Below, one piece after another: positions 1 to 55,164 of a stretch of DNA of 64,000 nucleotides (position 1 is the stretch's first letter; every line of letters starts with the position of its first letter). The position numbers and the translations under genes were made by a program. Source of the stretch: Geoglobus acetivorans (GTDB lineage: Archaea > Halobacteriota > Archaeoglobi > Archaeoglobales > Archaeoglobaceae); assembly GCF_000789255.1 (NCBI RefSeq), contig NZ_CP009552.1, positions 1,550,001 through 1,614,000 of the forward strand, in the 5' to 3' direction. The notes beneath the pieces were generated by a model. That model saw nothing but the letters and a program-made list of their open reading frames with translations, had not been told where the DNA came from and did not search any database.

Positions 1-634
1 TAACTCCAAGCTGTATCGGAGTGTCGAAAACCTTCACGTGCACCTTGCGCTTGATCAGTTCGTATTCCTCCTTTGTGAGATTCATATCCTGGAGAACTTT
101 TCTGAAAGTCGAACCTCTGCCATAGAGGGTTTCGCGGTTTGAGATAACCCTTTCTTCCACCCCCTGCAGGTTCTTCTCCACCATTAGTTTGTAAACGTCG
201 TAGCTTATGACCTTGTCAACATAAAGGCCGTACTCCTTTGCTTCAGCAATTCTTTCAACACCGAGCTTCAGCGCACTTTCAATGTCCATTACCTCGGCCC
301 TTCTCAGATTGTGTATTCCTGCCAGGAACCCCGGTGGTAGAATCTCAACAAACTCCGGAACACCGTTAATGTCGTCTTTGAATTCATACACTGCCTTTAT
401 AACGTCAATGACTTTCAGAAATGCCAGTCCCGCTCCGGTAAGACAGTATTTCTCGTCCTCCCGTCTCACAAGGCCCTCTTCCTCGAAAATTGTGAGGGTT
501 CTTGATAGTGTGGAAGGAGCATAGCCGTTGATATTGAGAATCTCTCTGAAAGTGCAGGGCTTCCCCATTAAACTTTCAAGAATTCGAACCTTTTCCTCCT
601 TTACGAGTTCCTTTGAGATACTATCAAATCCCAT
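1..634 (-). CDS. FilR1/DUF1724-type winged-helix transcription regulator, C-terminus cut by window edge
   Basis: The frame is open from an ATG at 634 to the first base of the window, giving about 211 residues, so the C-terminus lies outside. An N-terminal winged helix-turn-helix (roughly residues 5-70, with a YAPSTLSRTL recognition-helix pattern) is followed by an alpha/beta region with VEILPPGFLAG. That order resembles the archaeal regulators related to methanogenesis regulator FilR1. The start lies 7 bases after the endonuclease III stop, so the two are probably cotranscribed. Target and ligand are unknown. The family call is from recall of the pattern, not a search. Confidence 0.7.
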   Translation of the reverse strand, partial: MGFDSISKELVKEEKVRILESLMGKPCTFREILNINGYAPSTLSRTLTIFEEEGLVRREDEKYCLTGAGLAFLKVIDVIKAVYEFKDDINGVPEFVEILPPGFLAGIHNLRRAEVMDIESALKLGVERIAEAKEYGLYVDKVISYDVYKLMVEKNLQGVEERVISNRETLYGRGSTFRKVLQDMNLTKEEYELIKRKVHVKVFDTPIQLGV

Positions 635-45375: not shown

Positions 45376-46164
45376 TTAAAAATAAACTTCCGAAATGACA
45401 TGTATCGCATTATTCCCTATTCTGACGTTTGCATCGTCTCGCTGGCGCATACCAGTGATGCCCAGCCAGTCTTCTGCATGGAGGTTTGCGTAGCTGTGCA
45501 TCGCACTTGAAACATCGTTAAACGTGTCTTCAAAAGTTCCGGTGTTGCTGTATTGTGTAAATGATGGAGGCCATGATATTGTCACGAAAAATCCGCTGAT
45601 TGTAACTTCTGTAATTAGCTTTATCTCATCCGCATTGCCGCTTCCATACCACGTTCCTGAGGACCAGCCTTTCAGATCGCAGCTAGTATATATGGGGTCG
45701 CACTTTGCCACAAAATAAGTCTGTCCCTCAACATAACCACCATTCCAGTATTCCCACTGATCATCCCATCCGGCACACGTTACAATGTCCCTGGAGGTAT
45801 CCAGTATGCACGTGCCCCTTATGGAATTTGGGGACACAATCGATCCAGAAGTTTTGGAATTTCTTTCTCCTGGTGAAGGTACCTGAATCCCTTTTTTCTT
45901 GAGATTTTCTAAGTCTTTAGTAGCTTTGTTTTTAAGATATTCTGAAATATCCTTCAAAATTTTATTTCTTATTTTGCTGTTTTCGTCAATTTTTACAACA
46001 TATTTGCCCGGACCGACTTTTTTGATGTACTCTTTCCCTGTTCCATTGTATTTCGATATCAGAGAGTCAAGATCCCCAGCACTGGTCATTTCTGCAGCCA
46101 TCACTGGACTTATTATGCTTCCCACAATCACCAATACCAGCAATACTGCAAATGCCCTTTTCAT
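45376..46164 (-). CDS. Secreted protein heading the first island operon
   Basis: The 262-residue protein starts with a signal peptide (MKRAFAVLLVLVIVGS, cleavage after VMAA), then a charged helical stretch of about 100 residues and a Cys- and Trp-rich C-terminal region. Four Cys fall within about 55 residues from residue 124 (GTCILD, VTCAGWDDQWEYW, AKCDP, TSCDL), enough for two disulfides. I do not recognise the family. The signal resembles those at 41800 and 53961. Its promoter is the shared inverted-arm element. Confidence 0.7.
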   Translation of the reverse strand: MKRAFAVLLVLVIVGSIISPVMAAEMTSAGDLDSLISKYNGTGKEYIKKVGPGKYVVKIDENSKIRNKILKDISEYLKNKATKDLENLKKKGIQVPSPGERNSKTSGSIVSPNSIRGTCILDTSRDIVTCAGWDDQWEYWNGGYVEGQTYFVAKCDPIYTSCDLKGWSSGTWYGSGNADEIKLITEVTISGFFVTISWPPSFTQYSNTGTFEDTFNDVSSAMHSYANLHAEDWLGITGMRQRDDANVRIGNNAIHVISEVYF

Positions 46165-46424: not shown

Positions 46425-46646
46425 ATGAAACTCAGTGTAATTGTCTGGAGAGAAGAGGAGTGGTACATCATCACAGAAGTCTTCACAGGCGTTACGACGC
46501 AGGGCAAGACGATAGAGGAGGCAGTTGAAAACATAAAGGAGGCTGTGGAGCTATATCTGGAGGAAATGCCGGAAATCAGGGAGGAGCTTGAAAGAAGGGA
46601 TGTCGTAGGTGTGCTGAATGTCGAAATTGCCGAGATTGTCGGGTGA
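46425..46646 (+). CDS. hicB: HicB-family antitoxin
   Basis: The 73-residue protein has the HicB fold pattern: SVIVWREEEWYIITEV..GVTTQGKTIEEAVENIKEAVELYLEE. It neutralises the HicA RNase encoded next and overlapping by 29 bases. A TTTATAAAC TATA box lies about 25 bases before the ATG. Many archaeal HicB proteins of this size lack a DNA-binding tail, as here. Confidence 0.87.
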   Translation: MKLSVIVWREEEWYIITEVFTGVTTQGKTIEEAVENIKEAVELYLEEMPEIREELERRDVVGVLNVEIAEIVG

Positions 46647-46851
46647 AGATGTCATTAAAGTTCTCACCAGAAAATTTGGCTTCAGAGTCAGCAGGCAGAG
46701 AGGTAGCCATGTATCCTTAGTTAAGTACGCCGGTGGAAGGAAGATTACCACTGTTGTCCCACTGCATGATGAGCTCAGGCCCGGAACGCTCCTGGGAATC
46801 CTGAAGCTGGCAGAAATCGAGAAAGAGGAGTTCATCAGAAGTTTAAAGTAG
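46618..46851 (+). CDS. hicA: HicA-family toxin, mRNA interferase
   Basis: The 77-residue protein has the HicA pattern: LPRLSGEDVIKVLTRKFGF near residue 5 and RQRGSHVSLVK near residue 29, with the catalytic His in GSH. It then has TTVVPLHDELRPGTLLGILK. HicA cuts mRNA and is held in check by HicB. The pair is complete and compact. Confidence 0.9.
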   Translation: MSKLPRLSGEDVIKVLTRKFGFRVSRQRGSHVSLVKYAGGRKITTVVPLHDELRPGTLLGILKLAEIEKEEFIRSLK

Positions 46852-46868
46852 AAATTTACATTCATCGC

Positions 46869-47534
46869 TCATTTAACATCTGCGTGCAGCCCACACTCAT
46901 GCAGGAAATACACCCTATCGGCATACTCCTTTACACGCTCATCGTGTGTTGCCACCACCACCGCAGCGTCATTACTCTTTCTGAATTCGTCAAGCAATTC
47001 CAGAACTACTCTGCCATTTGAATCATCTAAATTTGCTGTCGGCTCGTCAATGATTGCAAGCTTGGGCTTTTTGCACAGAGCCATTGCTATGACTGCCCTC
47101 TTCCGCTCGCCAAAACTGAGCTGAAAGGGATACTTTCCAAGTCTGTTTGTCAGAGCAAGCCTCTCGGCAATTTCCTTCGCTATTCTGATACCCTCACTTT
47201 TAGGAGTACCTTTGATTGATAGGGGTAGCGTGAGATTGTCGGCCAGAGTTAGCGAGTTTACCATCTTGCAGGACTGATAGGCGTATCCTATGTAATCCCT
47301 CCTCAGGATATTCAGTTCGTTTTCTGATATTTTCAGGACACTTTTACCGTTTATCCTCACGTCTCCCTTATCCGGTTTGAGAACTGTTGCAAAGATGTTG
47401 AGGAGCGTTGTTTTACCCGATCCCGATGGAGCAAAAATTGCTGCAAATTCTCCGGGAGCAACTCTGAAGTCAATGCCTTTCAGGACTTCATGATTTCCAA
47501 AGCTTTTGCAGACTCCTGTGGTCACAAGCATCAT
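46869..47534 (-). CDS. ABC transporter ATP-binding protein, LolD/MacB type
   Basis: The 221-residue ATPase has Walker A APSGSGKTT near residue 36, Walker B LAIIDEPTAN near residue 158 and a signature LSFGERKRA, in which the normal LSGGE has Phe for the first Gly. The short form is typical of LolD/MacB/FtsE ATPases that power FtsX-type permeases. Its start overlaps the permease gene by 4 bases. Confidence 0.88.
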   Translation of the reverse strand: MMLVTTGVCKSFGNHEVLKGIDFRVAPGEFAAIFAPSGSGKTTLLNIFATVLKPDKGDVRINGKSVLKISENELNILRRDYIGYAYQSCKMVNSLTLADNLTLPLSIKGTPKSEGIRIAKEIAERLALTNRLGKYPFQLSFGERKRAVIAMALCKKPKLAIIDEPTANLDDSNGRVVLELLDEFRKSNDAAVVVATHDERVKEYADRVYFLHECGLHADVK

Positions 47535-48622
47535 CTCACCTCCGAAAGAGTTCTGGCAAGATCAAAATTTCTGAAAAGCCAGTAGGATGCAAGATAGGAT
47601 ACAATGACAGAGAATACCGCGAGCAGGGAAACCGAAATGATGAAGCTGGCATCCAGTGGCATGAAGAGTCCCACAAAGTTTTCGACGTATGCCTTAGCCA
47701 CAACGTACGAAACCGGCAGCACAATCAGCAGCCATCTTAAAACGGTCAGCGCCGTAAAAAGAAGAGACACAAAATTCCTGGATGCGCCCATCATGATCAG
47801 AACTGCAAAGTCCCCGGACCTCAGGTTAAATGTGGACTGAACATCCCGCAAAAGAATGGCGAGAATTACCAGAAATCCACCATAACGCATGGTTCTCATA
47901 ATCGTGGCATTTTCCAGATTGTCAAGTTCTGCTTTCTTTTTATCCAAAATTTCAGTCCTTTTTGCAACGAAATACGATTCGTCAGCGATGAGTGCCACAT
48001 CACCCATATCACTTTTGTTAGACAGCTTAACCCATAAAGAGGAATATCCCCTGAACATATCTGCGATGTTCTTAACAGCCCTTTCATCCACCACTATTCT
48101 GTTTCGGGATGCAGAAGTTGGGTACAGTATACCGGTTATTTCTACATTTTCTGTCACATTTTTCACCTGTATGGTCACATAACTGCCCAGTTCGACATTC
48201 AGCTTTTTTGCAGTAGCCACATCTATGATGGCACCACCATTTCCGATACTTTCTTTGAGATATGCTGAATTTATTTCCGTCAATTCAAGCGCTTTCGTCA
48301 GATTGTCCACAATAAACAGGTCCAGCTTTCTACAGTTGCCCGATTGGCCACACACTTCAACTCCTCCAATTATCTTGCCTTTGACTACCAGATTCCCACT
48401 ATTTTCCAGCTTTTTTGCAAATTCTTCACTTATGGGGCCGGTTACAAACAAGTCGAATTGGGCAACCTGATACGGGCCAACCTCACTAAACGCAGTTATG
48501 GAGGGTATGGAAACCACAAAAAACCAGAAGGACAAGACAATGATTGACAGAAACAAATACTTCAATTCCGATTTAATGTCTGTCTTGATGCTCTTTAAAA
48601 AAAATTTTAATAATAAAGACAC
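47531..48622 (-). CDS. FtsX/MacB-like ABC permease
   Basis: The 363-residue protein has one N-terminal transmembrane helix (about residues 20-45), an extracellular domain of about 190 residues, and three C-terminal transmembrane segments. A coiled-coil-like stretch before the second helix (AELDNLENA) completes the MacB-type layout. Two Cys in EVCGQSGNCRKL could pair. The GTG at 48622 is chosen because GGAGGTGAAACA precedes it directly. With its ATPase it may move or release surface proteins or peptides, not import solutes. Confidence 0.8.
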   Translation of the reverse strand: MSLLLKFFLKSIKTDIKSELKYLFLSIIVLSFWFFVVSIPSITAFSEVGPYQVAQFDLFVTGPISEEFAKKLENSGNLVVKGKIIGGVEVCGQSGNCRKLDLFIVDNLTKALELTEINSAYLKESIGNGGAIIDVATAKKLNVELGSYVTIQVKNVTENVEITGILYPTSASRNRIVVDERAVKNIADMFRGYSSLWVKLSNKSDMGDVALIADESYFVAKRTEILDKKKAELDNLENATIMRTMRYGGFLVILAILLRDVQSTFNLRSGDFAVLIMMGASRNFVSLLFTALTVLRWLLIVLPVSYVVAKAYVENFVGLFMPLDASFIISVSLLAVFSVIVSYLASYWLFRNFDLARTLSEVR

Positions 48623-48642
48623 TGTTTCACCTCCATCAAATG

Positions 48643-49080
48643 TCAATTCACATAGAGATATGTCGTATACGGGTATGCGTACGGAATGTATCCCGGACCA
48701 CCACCCATTAACGCCCTGTATGTACCAGTGCTTCCAGCTTTTGTCTTAACATTCAGGTACATGTGGGTACTGTCAATAACCCAGAAACTACTGCGATAAT
48801 GCCATGCTGGACCGCCCAAATCGTTATTGAATTGCTGATATTCTAAGGCCAGATTGGGAAGATTTACATGTGACCACGCATCAAATCCAGAATCGCCACT
48901 CGATACCATGTAGCCCTGTAACAGCCTTTTGCGTGAATTTTTAAGCTGAAAAGAATAATAGTCTCCGGCTGTTAAGTAGACAGAAACTGAAGCACTTTCA
49001 TTATTTGGGCCTTGTGTTGGTGAATATCCTGTAAGACTGGTCACATCTTTTTCAGACGCAACATTCATAGACCTTTTCAT
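48643..49080 (-). CDS. Unknown 145-residue protein between a secreted protein and its ABC system
   Basis: The protein is beta-rich, with ASVSVYLTAGDYYSFQLKN near residue 30 and a Gly/Pro/Tyr-rich C-terminus (ALMGGGPGYIPYAYPYTTY). There is no signal peptide from ATG 49080, which is preceded by GAGGGG. A longer start at TTG 49110 also lacks a signal. It may therefore stay in the cell or be exported by the ABC system encoded next. I do not recognise the family. Confidence 0.55.
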   Translation of the reverse strand: MKRSMNVASEKDVTSLTGYSPTQGPNNESASVSVYLTAGDYYSFQLKNSRKRLLQGYMVSSGDSGFDAWSHVNLPNLALEYQQFNNDLGGPAWHYRSSFWVIDSTHMYLNVKTKAGSTGTYRALMGGGPGYIPYAYPYTTYLYVN

Positions 49081-49142
49081 TATATCGTCCCCTCTCATCT
49101 GCTTATCCAATATTACATAATTAATAAAAAATATTTTTAATT

Positions 49143-50321
49143 CTATATTTTAAACTCCACATATCCTTCATCAGTATATGTCCAGAAGAATACGTTGAAT
49201 TTACCGTATTTTACACCATAATGCTCCCTCCACTCCATTGGATTACCATCTGGAACTCTGATAGTGGCTCCTGGTTCAATTTGATAGGTATTTGACCTTA
49301 CGGCCTTTCCTTCATCAACGTTATGCCACCATTTTGCCAGTTCCTGAGAATAGTCGCTCTGGTCGTAAACCACAACATCAGGGATTGTGTAACTCCAAGA
49401 CTGCGATGCTGACACCTGTGCACCATCGGTTCCAGCTGTGACACCAACTGAAACGGTAACCGTCGAGGCACCCGATGTCGTGGTTGGAGAGTAGTCTGAA
49501 AGGAAGTAACCGCTCCGATAGTAATTGGCATCAACCCATGTGTACATGTCCGCAGTTTTCCATCCGGAGTTCCACAGCAATTCACCTGGCACAGACTGTT
49601 GTCTGACATGTACATTATACCAGTCATAAGTCCCAGAACCATCATTGTACAGTTTGTAATACAGGGTTCTCACATTTAGTCTCCCGTAAGGTTGCCAGTC
49701 ATTTCCTGTTGTGTAATTAAGCTGATATATTTGATTCCAGTAGGGTGACGTCTGAATCGTAAAATCGCCTGCATATGGGTGTATGTTCTCCTCAGCCCAA
49801 GAGTAAGCCTCCTTTACAATGGCGGAACTTGGATCAGTCGAAACAAATACTTTGCTAAACAAAGTCCTATTGATCTGATAGATTATAAATCCGTACACTT
49901 TCTCTTCTCCAATTTTTTTACCATCAGGCCTCCTGCCATCAACAATCTGGGGGCTGAACTGACCCTCAAACAGATTTTTTGCTATTTCGGTACTTCCATT
50001 CACGACGATTACAGGTATTCCTGACAGAATTTCTTCACGCAGAAAATCTCTTATTCCGGGCAAGTTTCTTGCTTTCCATCCATCAACAACAAGAATGTGC
50101 TTTCCTGCAATTTTTCTAAAGTCTTTCATCTCAGTTGATGAACTGAAGTATTTTCCGACATCTTTACCTATGTAGTATACTGGAAGGCGGTTATTCACTT
50201 TCTCAAGTTCATCAGATTTTGTCCCCTTTAAGGGTCCGCCGTTTGACGCTACCATTGCGGCACTTCCGACAAATACAACACTCAGGAGGCATAAAACCAC
50301 CAGTTCTCTCAAACCCCTCAT
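49143..50321 (-). CDS. Secreted beta-rich protein heading the second island operon
   Basis: The 392-residue protein has a signal peptide (residues 1-25). A region of about 150 residues with a Rossmann-like feel follows (KHILVVDGWKARNLPGI, GIPVIVVNGS). The C-terminal 200 residues are Tyr-, Trp- and Thr-rich with beta pattern (TVTVSVGVTAGTDGAQVSA, SWSYTIPDVVVYDQSD). The alternating small and polar residues recall beta-barrel pore-forming or surface-adhesive proteins, but there is no sure family. It has the shared leader and element 2 upstream. Confidence 0.65.
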   Translation of the reverse strand: MRGLRELVVLCLLSVVFVGSAAMVASNGGPLKGTKSDELEKVNNRLPVYYIGKDVGKYFSSSTEMKDFRKIAGKHILVVDGWKARNLPGIRDFLREEILSGIPVIVVNGSTEIAKNLFEGQFSPQIVDGRRPDGKKIGEEKVYGFIIYQINRTLFSKVFVSTDPSSAIVKEAYSWAEENIHPYAGDFTIQTSPYWNQIYQLNYTTGNDWQPYGRLNVRTLYYKLYNDGSGTYDWYNVHVRQQSVPGELLWNSGWKTADMYTWVDANYYRSGYFLSDYSPTTTSGASTVTVSVGVTAGTDGAQVSASQSWSYTIPDVVVYDQSDYSQELAKWWHNVDEGKAVRSNTYQIEPGATIRVPDGNPMEWREHYGVKYGKFNVFFWTYTDEGYVEFKI

Positions 50322-50378: not shown

Positions 50379-50436
50379 TTCTGACCATATTTTGAGAATA
50401 TATTTTTGTTTTTATTTTCTAAAAACATGCTATTCC
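50379..50436. promoter_or_regulatory. Island element 2: one good arm, one decayed arm
   Basis: Left arm TTCTGACCATATTTTGAGAA (50379-50398) is intact and sits next to a TTTTTATTTC TATA-like box on the minus strand. The partner TTCTAAAAACATGCTATTCC (50417-50436) has lost most of the GGTCAGAA end. There is no divergent gene on that side, only the 3' end of the kelch gene. Confidence 0.75.
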
Positions 50437-52878: not shown

Positions 52879-53961
52879 TCATCCCGTCACGTACTTGACA
52901 AGTCCAAGGACGTATTTGGCTGTTTCAAGAAGACTGTCCTCAGTTATGCTCCTTACCAGTGTGCTACTCTGCCAAGTATCTGGATTATTGTAAATCGTAA
53001 GGTAGAGTGTGTCAAAGTAATAGTGAGAATAGCTTGCTAAATTCTCAGTTGCGTCCCATGGATCGTTGATTGCATAGTAGTACCGGTTGTCTTCAATTAC
53101 CGATTTAAAATTGTAACCACTTTCCCAGTTATTTGAAACATAGTCTTCATATGCTGTATGTACCCATTTATGGAGGGCCTGATCTGCCTCTCTTCCAGTA
53201 TGTAAAGGATTTCCTACATCAGTCAGAAAGTGACTTGCCCAACCTAAACCCTGAAAAGCATTGTACATATCTCCGTTTCTGTAATAAGATCTCGCACCAT
53301 ATGCATAATACCAGCAGTAATATGGTGCTGACCCCACTCCAGTGTCTGGATTGTAGTAATGGTCGGATGGTAAATGGGGCCAGTAGTCTGGATCATCAGC
53401 ATGATCCATCGTGATGTTGCAGTAGTCTCTATAAATCCCCCACTTTATACATGAGATGTAGATTATGCTCTGATGAGTATCCACATTCCAGAGTATCCCC
53501 ACATCTCCACCATACTTTGTACTGAAGTACTCGTTCACAGCCTGAGCAACCTTTTCCAGCATAGCCTTCTCCTCTTGTGTAAGGTTTAGCCCTGCTTTTG
53601 AGTTCAGAGTAATCAGAGTTACGTTACCATCTTTAATGCTCCTTACGCGGTACTTCCTCCAAAGTTCTTTCACGAACTTCTTCAGTTCGATTTTCTCTTC
53701 TTTCGTCAGATTTGTACTGCTATCGATGTACTTGAAGGTTGCTGCTCTGCCTTTTTCTATGATGCCAGCTGCGATGATTATCCAGTAAGGTGTTGCGTTT
53801 TCGAGAACTGGATCGACTTTTATGATGTTTATGTTCTTGTGTAATTCTGTCCTTTCTGTTGCCATTATTGGCTTCATTTCTGCAGTGTTTGCTGCCATTG
53901 TCGGACTCACTACACTGCTCAACATTACGAAAACCAACAGCACTGCCAATGCTCTTCTCAT
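52879..53961 (-). CDS. Secreted zinc-dependent phospholipase C/P1 nuclease-superfamily protein
   Basis: The 360-residue protein has a signal peptide (MRRALAVLLVFVMLSS, cleavage after TMAA), a helical propeptide-like region of about 120 residues and a C-terminal catalytic domain. The zinc ligand spacing of bacterial phospholipase C is intact: H-x3-D-x5-H-x13-H-x3-E at about residues 244-272 (SHFLTDVGNPLH then WVHTAYE). Extra candidate ligands are His163 in DTHQS and His201 in SDHYY. It may cleave phospholipids or nucleic acid outside the cell. The ATG at 53961 follows GAGGTGGTG. Confidence 0.8.
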   Translation of the reverse strand: MRRALAVLLVFVMLSSVVSPTMAANTAEMKPIMATERTELHKNINIIKVDPVLENATPYWIIIAAGIIEKGRAATFKYIDSSTNLTKEEKIELKKFVKELWRKYRVRSIKDGNVTLITLNSKAGLNLTQEEKAMLEKVAQAVNEYFSTKYGGDVGILWNVDTHQSIIYISCIKWGIYRDYCNITMDHADDPDYWPHLPSDHYYNPDTGVGSAPYYCWYYAYGARSYYRNGDMYNAFQGLGWASHFLTDVGNPLHTGREADQALHKWVHTAYEDYVSNNWESGYNFKSVIEDNRYYYAINDPWDATENLASYSHYYFDTLYLTIYNNPDTWQSSTLVRSITEDSLLETAKYVLGLVKYVTG

Positions 53962-54016
53962 CGCACCACCTCTTGGTTTTGCCATCTAATATTATAACCT
54001 TACAGACATAAATATT
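53962..54016 (-). repeat. Shared leader/promoter cassette, copy B
   Basis: This matches copy A at 50322-50378 (see there), with the same 55-base distance from CGCACC next to the start codon to the first operator arm. About six substitutions and no gaps separate them. Confidence 0.8.
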
Positions 54017-54075: not shown

Positions 54076-54106
54076 AGTTTATATTCCTTTAAAATCAACA
54101 ACAATT

Positions 54107-54484
54107 ATGAAATCAAATCTAATTGCAGCGATGGTGGCGGCGGTTCTTATTATCTCTTCCCCGGTCTACGCAAAATCCGGAGAAGCTGGGATAGATACTG
54201 TGTATGACTCTATCAAGCAGGGGGAAACCGACTGGTTCAGCAGGTACATCTCTTCACCCACATTCGACGTTTATCTTGTATGGATCAACCCGTCCAGCAG
54301 CCTCACTCTAACGCTATATTCTCCAAATGGAGATGTGTATGGCCCCTTTAGAGATTCGAGTGATGGTGCGGTTGATGGTAAAATAGCATTAACCGTCGAG
54401 AATGCCGAACAGGGAGTGTGGTACTTCAAGGTGTATGGCGAGAGGGTGAGCGGGTTTCAGCATTATTCTTTAGCAGTGTTATGA
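54107..54484 (+). CDS. Small secreted beta-sandwich protein (PPC-like)
   Basis: The 125-residue protein has a signal peptide (cleavage after VYA) and a mature part of about 103 residues. That part resembles the bacterial pre-peptidase C-terminal domain: IKQGETDWFSRYI, DVYLVWINPSSSLTLTLYSPNG, and GVWYFKVYGERVSG. It overlaps the membrane regulator gene by 4 bases, so it may be the outside sensor or ligand of that regulator. Divergent from the phospholipase-like gene through element 3. Confidence 0.72.
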   Translation: MKSNLIAAMVAAVLIISSPVYAKSGEAGIDTVYDSIKQGETDWFSRYISSPTFDVYLVWINPSSSLTLTLYSPNGDVYGPFRDSSDGAVDGKIALTVENAEQGVWYFKVYGERVSGFQHYSLAVL

Positions 54485-55164
54485 GGACTAAAATCCCAAT
54501 TTTGCTCCTGTTAACGTTTTTACTGGTTTTTCAGACTTTATCTCCCACTTCCGAGGCTGCCACGGTAAAACCGGCAAACATAAGCGATGAAGAGTTAATG
54601 AAGAGGGTTAAAAACGACCCTGCAGATGAGGTCAAGGTTTCCTTCTGGGATCTGCCTCTGTGGATAAAGGTGCACCACATAGCCACTCTCGCTGTAAGTG
54701 CTCTTGCCATCTGGAAGCTCCTTCCGTTCTTCGCCGGGAAAATTAAGGTCAGGCTGGAGAACAGAAACAGAAAAAGGATTCTTGAGTTCGTCATCAAAAA
54801 TCCGGGAGTCAGCCTGAGAGATCTCGAAAGGCACCTCAAAATGAACAGAAGCACGCTCAGGCACCACATCGAGGCTCTCGAAAGGGAAGGGACGGTAATA
54901 ACCATAAAGGCGGGAAAGGAAAGGCTCGCATTTCCACTTGAGTACCTCATCTTCAACGGTAGAAATCTTGACAGGAAAATTGTTCTCAGATCTGATGCGA
55001 GAAAAAAGATTCTTGATGTGCTGAGCAGAAATGGAGGGATGAGGATGAGCGAGCTGGCAAATGCTCTCGAAATGAGCTACAAGACCCTGCACTACCATGT
55101 GGCTGTTCTGCAGAGAGCGGGCCTTGTCGAGTTTGATGGTCAGACCGTGAAAGTGAGAGTTTGA
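54481..55164 (+). CDS. Membrane-anchored tandem winged-helix transcription regulator
   Basis: The 227-residue protein has a signal peptide (residues 1-26) and a short outside segment (27-60). One transmembrane helix lies near 65-85 (VHHIATLAVSALAIWKLLPFF), followed by a cytoplasmic part with two winged helices. Their recognition regions read SLRDLERHLKMNRSTLRHHIEAL near residue 120 and RMSELANALEMSYKTLHYHVAVL near 190. The layout suggests an outside signal passed to DNA-bound wings. The neighbouring inverted arms are natural candidate targets. Confidence 0.82.
   Translation: MRTKIPILLLLTFLLVFQTLSPTSEAATVKPANISDEELMKRVKNDPADEVKVSFWDLPLWIKVHHIATLAVSALAIWKLLPFFAGKIKVRLENRNRKRILEFVIKNPGVSLRDLERHLKMNRSTLRHHIEALEREGTVITIKAGKERLAFPLEYLIFNGRNLDRKIVLRSDARKKILDVLSRNGGMRMSELANALEMSYKTLHYHVAVLQRAGLVEFDGQTVKVRV

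Follow-up and report, generated by a model that had tools for sequence, protein, structure and literature searches.

A candidate archaeal co-component transcription regulator, with a secreted PPC-like partner, linked to oriented promoter arms and secreted-protein genes

Regulators of the ToxR/CadC family have an N-terminal cytoplasmic winged helix-turn-helix (wHTH) domain and a C-terminal periplasmic domain. Co-component systems, in which a transmembrane transcription regulator (TTR) is encoded with a partner protein, include ToxR/ToxS, TcpP/TcpH, VtrA/VtrC and PsaE/PsaF (PMC10269533), and a table in that paper lists an archaeal example, ArnR, with no associated protein. ArnR and ArnR1 of Sulfolobus acidocaldarius, which control the archaellum and pili without a partner protein, consist of an N-terminal HTH, a HAMP domain, a sensor domain and two C-terminal transmembrane (TM) helices (PMC6396743). 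Two further archaeal activators, TFB-RF1 (PMC5937170) and EarA (PMC5512572), act at weak BREs. Little is known of how archaea control secreted proteins, or of membrane sensing without two-component systems, for which the literature that we consulted offers ArnR as the archaeal case. In the literature searched, which covered few subscription journals, we found no description of the gene pair, operator or regulon presented below, or of COG3398/2512-type regulators of such a kind.

The locus in Geoglobus acetivorans that we analyze here encodes a secreted PPC-like protein and a membrane-anchored regulator, a pair that we consider likely to be an archaeal co-component TTR controlling both itself and a local secretome regulon. 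As in the co-component TTRs (PMC10269533), a DNA-binding protein predicted to be held in the membrane is co-encoded with an extracytoplasmic partner and would exert its control directly from the membrane. Unlike those systems, the archaeal pair has tandem C-terminal winged helices rather than one N-terminal DNA-binding domain, a partner that is a secreted PPC-like beta sandwich and not lipocalin-like, a tiny outside stub, and its own conserved candidate operator and secretome regulon. The domain order of the ToxR/CadC family is likewise not found in the regulator, where the outside stub and TM helix come first and the tandem wHTH domains are C-terminal. The pair resembles ArnR/ArnR1 in that these are archaeal membrane-bound HTH one-component activators with two inverted-repeat boxes in a target promoter, but the layout given for our regulator by Pfam and AlphaFold differs from the ArnR family architecture (PMC6396743). 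The candidate operator lies directly upstream of BRE/TATA, as do the sites of TFB-RF1 (PMC5937170) and EarA (PMC5512572), which, unlike the regulator, are soluble proteins with unrelated sites. Finally, the genes at these sites recall archaeal "dark matter islands", in which genes for secreted proteases and uncharacterized proteins cluster and undergo rapid reshuffling, and for which the sections of the source used here describe no linking regulator or promoter element, unlike the genes studied here (PMC4158269).

The gene pair and its predicted products

The window, i.e., the whole stretch of 64,000 nucleotides that we analyzed, corresponds to positions 1,550,001-1,614,000 of contig 1 in a genome (G000) made up of one contig of 1,860,815 bp. 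The preliminary description of this DNA had proposed that the two genes overlap by 4 bases, that the first encodes a signal peptide with a PPC-like domain, and that the second encodes a signal peptide, a stub, one TM helix and two winged helices. The overlap is present as a shared ATGA (Table 1), and both protein layouts agree with our structure and family predictions. The AlphaFold model of the first product consists of an N-terminal helix followed by an 8-strand beta sandwich, with a block-mean pLDDT of 93-96 over residues 31-80 and 91-125 and of 74 in residues 81-90. Foldseek places it in the PDB beside the C-terminal beta domain of Tk-SP subtilisin (E = 2e-5) and the PPC/collagen-binding domains of collagenases (E = 9e-4 for the collagenase PPC domain 5sv5), with TM-scores of 0.58-0.60 by query length. 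The Pfam match to PPC (PF04151; E = 0.0012, 20.1 bits) is under the family cut-off of 25.9, 3 of 18 relatives match this family with E values no higher than 0.01, the best being 4.5e-6, and a search by sequence for a solved relative gave no convincing hit among PDB chains. On the basis of the model, we assign the first product to the PPC beta-sandwich fold.

In the regulator, both wHTH stretches belong to HTH_24 (Pfam, 4e-20). Its AlphaFold model shows a signal helix at residues 4-19 and a poorly ordered stub, which ends in a conserved FWDLPLWIK at residues 55-63, and then an unbroken helix (residues 60-106) that joins the membrane segment to the first winged helix, of which it forms helix 1, with the second winged helix following. 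Hydrophobic segments are also present in relatives of the regulator. With a DNA-binding domain and at least one TM segment predicted in a single protein, the regulator falls within the definition of a TTR.

Table 1. Positions of the pair, arms, promoters and arm-associated genes in the window (ORF coordinates and arm positions in window numbering; regulator domains in residues)
Feature	Position	Strand	Remarks
PPC-like secreted protein	54107..54484	+	125 aa; signal peptide, 8-strand beta sandwich (predicted), conserved D..DG..DG motif
Membrane-anchored tandem winged-helix regulator	54481..55164	+	227 aa from ATG 54481
Predicted regulator domains	TM helix ~62-84; wHTH1 ~92-155; wHTH2 ~165-225	+	Pfam, AlphaFold
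Element 3 left arm, TTCTGACCATATCTTGAGAA	54017..54036	+	Candidate operator, leftward promoter
Element 3 right arm, TTCTGACCATGTTTTGAGAA	54056..54075	-	Candidate operator, PPC-regulator operon
Putative TATA box of PPC-regulator operon, TTTATATT	54078..54085	+	~25 bp to ATG 54107; from sequence and register to arm
TATA-like box of divergent secreted gene	54007..54014	-	From sequence
Element 3 divergent target, secreted 368-aa protein	52879..53985	-	Alternatively 360 aa from ATG 53961
Element 2 arm, TTCTGACCATATTTTGAGAA	50379..50398	+	Right partner ~50417-50434 degenerate
Element 2 target, secreted 392-aa protein	49143..50321	-	No Pfam family
Element 1 left arm, TTCTGACCATATTTTCAGAA	46217..46236	+	Arm pattern
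Element 1 right arm, TTCTGACCATGTTTTGAGAA	46256..46275	-	Arm pattern
Element 1 target, secreted 262-aa protein	45376..46164	-	No Pfam family over cut-off

Oriented arms at divergent promoters

A 20-bp arm pattern matches 11 times in the window, with both strands of imperfect dyads counted, versus 1.3 matches expected, and none of 100 shuffles had as many. The genome contains three elements inside the window and one at 31.9 kb. The pair had been proposed to be driven from element 3, and indeed both arms of this element and a TATA box precede the operon, whose mRNA is expected from the promoter spacing to be leaderless. The divergent target of element 3 has weak similarity to zinc-dependent phospholipase C (ASHFLTDVGNPLHT motif) and no Pfam match over the cut-off. 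The target of element 2 shares ~60% identity over 283 aa with an arm-driven protein of another genus (G021), and in G001 and G002 the orthologue of the element 1 target is the gene divergent from the PPC-regulator pair itself.

Several further features accompany these elements. On the right side of element 1 (46425-46851, + strand) are genes for a HicB-like antitoxin and a HicA toxin (HicA Pfam 1.4e-15), and the HicB-like gene occurs at the same place in G001. Downstream of the 392-aa secreted gene and on the same strand, positions 46869-49110 (- strand) hold a pair of MacB-like ABC transporter genes together with a gene for a small protein; this could be an export or antagonism cluster, and the small protein has a segment, SEKDVxSLTGYxPTQGPNNESASVSVYLTAGDYYS, in common with an arm-driven protein of G016 (G016_301). 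At the fourth element (G000 contig 1, 30.8-31.9 kb; L080 8818-9932) the secreted target is frameshifted, and in G001 this target is intact (334 aa), with a transposase-like ORF on the other side. An Rfam search around the locus found nothing but a nearby tRNA.

Among 28 distinct arm pairs (56 arms) from Archaeoglobi, the arm is an imperfect dyad with the consensus TTCTGACCAT-NNNTTGAGAA, in which ACCA, T15 and AA19-20 never vary. Beyond the TTCT end of nearly every one of these arms, a few bases out, an outward TATA box starts. The spacing between arms varies, with start-to-start distances of 38-40 in 22 pairs and 53-54 bp in 6 pairs, and from 21 to ~170 bp in methanogens. In 84 methanogen sites, read outward from the TGNCCA end, the register is the same, with a BRE-like A run ahead of a TATA-like box (positions 8-13), and the distance from the 18-20-bp arm to BRE/TATA is fixed across these 84 sites and the 56 Archaeoglobi arms. 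We therefore regard the arm as an oriented, promoter-proximal site, because the outward TATA box is in fixed register to it. Single arms with one flanking gene point towards that gene in 33 of 34 cases (8 of 8 in Archaeoglobi and 25 of 26 in methanogens). Given that single arms exist and that spacing varies, the inverted arms of the preliminary description are better read as two independent, back-to-back candidate operators for two divergent promoters.

The inverted layout and the several near-identical copies could also suggest the end of a mobile element or a transcribed hairpin, a reading to which we give almost no weight. The arms sit between divergent TATA boxes, so that transcription of the arms is not expected, which argues against a hairpin or attenuator; as for mobile-element ends, there is no consistent transposase, spacing is variable, oriented single copies are frequent, and most copies keep a fixed register to TATA although the secreted genes on either side are unrelated. 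Two other candidates were rejected: an extended BRE read by an alternative TFB, in the case of the window genome, since it has one TFB gene and therefore no alternative TFB, and a viral origin, as no relative is encoded on any viral contig.

The outer end of the arm abuts or overlaps the BRE on nearly every promoter, and repression is therefore possible, with the regulator as a membrane-tethered repressor that would block TFB at the BRE until released by the PPC protein or its ligand. We consider this unlikely, in that the arm, always in one orientation, occupies the ~20 bp that precede the BRE, as at the promoters of archaeal activators that help TFB (PMC5937170, PMC5512572). By analogy with these proteins, the regulator is probably an activator.

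Distribution of the pair and the arms

Our survey of 59 Archaeoglobi genomes identified the full regulator in 13 and the PPC gene in 13; the arm-pair pattern, in its exact gapped form, matched 14 genomes and its reversed control none. Both arm pair and regulator are present in 11 genomes, arms only in 3, the regulator only in 3 and neither in 42 (Fisher p = 4e-7, with genomes taken as independent despite relatedness and the truncated regulator of G024 included). This co-occurrence spans six genera, with arms clustering around the pair, and the Archaeoglobi PPC gene occurs almost only in genomes with the regulator or its remnants. Of the regulator-only genomes, G060 contains a slightly diverged arm pair and a seemingly broken PPC gene, and the closely related G035 and G065 have neither a PPC gene nor an arm pair, with one weak single arm each.

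The arms might instead belong to one or more other DNA-binding proteins, with the PPC-regulator operon merely another of their targets. For example, arms are present without the regulator in G005, G006, G011 and G069, and in G006 one single arm is kept before an intact secreted gene. However, the reading frames beside the arms of G011 and G069 are broken, as expected after regulator loss, and the assembly of G005 is fragmented and contaminated. Together with the co-occurrence across six genera, the clustering of arms by the pair, and methanogen arms that have a related but distinct sequence in the same place before the pair, this makes another binder improbable.

Beyond Archaeoglobi, the PPC family is present in 113 of 394 genomes of the phylum, and the regulator is encoded directly downstream of the PPC homologue in 107 of 108 loci across its classes, these loci being the best-scoring ones of a PPC-ranked search and not a random sample, with some overlaps and 95 unique pairs. 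The stop-to-start gaps of these 95 pairs are mostly -4 to +36. By this adjacency, the PPC gene is placed as the partner genes of co-component TTRs are. Among named carriers, the regulator is present in Methanolobus, Methanogenium, Methanocella and Candidatus Methanoperedens. Methanomethylovorans hollandica has the pair on plasmid pMETHO01, annotated as "hypothetical protein" and "winged helix-turn-helix transcriptional regulator", with genes for a disaggregatase-repeat protein and for a member of the zinc-dependent phospholipase C family nearby. In methanogen loci L144-L223, the mature N-termini of the PPC protein and the regulator often share GGYxVxP, possibly a shared contact or sorting feature, and this motif was not found in Archaeoglobi pairs.

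Inverted repeats of 18 bases are present upstream of 23 of 90 operons at up to 2 mismatches, versus 0 of 450 dinucleotide shuffles, and of 38 of 90 at up to 3 mismatches, versus 9 of 450. The methanogen arm consensus is TGNCCANATCNTCNAACT, of which TGACCATATC is common to the Archaeoglobi arm. At up to 2 mismatches, this motif was identified in 34 of 79 operons versus 11 of 196 other upstream regions of the same loci, with two or more sites in 22 operons versus 3 other upstream regions. Approximately half of the methanogen loci, mostly lower-scoring and more diverged, contain no recognizable arm of the methanogen consensus. The earlier expectation that the regulator would not be found without inverted arms nearby is thus weakly contradicted by these loci and by G035 and G065, and otherwise arms are found where the pair is, among other places at the promoter of the pair itself.

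Domains of the PPC type generally serve as helpers of secreted enzymes. The PPC protein could accordingly be a secreted effector with no signaling role, encoded first in the regulator operon by chance, and regulators without a PPC gene occur in G035, G065 and L300. Against this, adjacency is retained in nearly all of the loci above, across classes, while other targets reshuffle, and the PPC gene of Archaeoglobi is almost confined to genomes with the regulator or its remnants; we consider a bystander role doubtful, if less so than a repressor role. Our confidences in these readings overlap, as a bystander PPC protein and a repressing regulator are both variants inside the main explanation.

Secreted neighbors and a proposed circuit

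Signal-peptide-like N-termini, scored by a simple hydropathy rule, are encoded by 29 of 33 Archaeoglobi genes that start beside arms (a count that includes one PPC gene), versus 75 of 334 other genes (p = 8e-14), and by 24 of 27 methanogen arm-adjacent genes versus 42 of 74 others (p = 0.002). One of the arm-adjacent genes encodes a C39-type protease that carries a Spi inhibitor domain, and others a metalloprotease-like secreted protein with an HEIxHNFNAxDxG motif that shares 43% identity between a Geoglobus relative and a methanogen and is arm-driven in both. The preliminary description had called for a search for the same pair in other archaea, together with arms and secreted genes, and most of its proposal is supported by the 107 loci, the 11 genomes with both arms and regulator, and the 29 secreted neighbors. 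Since the pair and its promoter sites recur beside exported-protein genes in many methane-cycle and hyperthermophilic archaea, they look like an undescribed form of membrane control of secreted enzymes.

In the co-component circuit that we favor, the wHTH protein would be tethered by one membrane helix, rigidly continuous with its first winged helix, and the outside stub, with its conserved FWDLPLW segment, would be the expected contact for the PPC-like protein or for a ligand that it presents. From gene linkage, we infer that the PPC partner probably contacts the stub from outside, in the way that ToxS or VtrC serve their regulators. The tandem winged helices in the cytoplasm would bind the 18-20-bp arms, whose imperfect dyad could be covered half by half, and from this activator-type position directly upstream of BRE/TATA the regulator would help, or else block, TFB at the BRE. 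It would in this way control its own operon and nearby genes for secreted proteins (protease-like, phospholipase-like and unclassified), and the cell could tune its secretome to a cell-surface signal. More tentatively, and as a possibility that we would not yet favor, the PPC protein, itself under regulator control, may across the phylum report conditions at the cell exterior (substrate, matrix, calcium or cell density) to a membrane activator of a dedicated, reshuffling secretome regulon, i.e., an autoinducing one-piece circuit that would be new to Archaea.

The candidate operator, secreted partner and membrane regulator form a conserved three-part module, which occurs in cultivable and plasmid-borne cases and whose operator consensus is readable in both Archaeoglobi and methanogens. 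It is therefore feasible to predict regulons and to test directly whether transcription is controlled by a membrane-tethered protein.

Two groups of arm-driven genes were also observed. The genes at 45376-46164 and 52879-53985, and those in L081, L085, L087 and L096, encode a near-identical signal peptide (like MRRALAVLLVLVMLGSVVSPxxA) followed by unrelated mature bodies, which suggests that mature bodies are exchanged behind one promoter and signal-peptide cassette. In addition, a single arm is present before a conserved secreted protein of ~402-418 aa (KHLRLxPGDxxTFTVK) in G016, G032 and G006 (loci L062, L093 and L097), and this gene keeps its single arm even where the regulator is missing.
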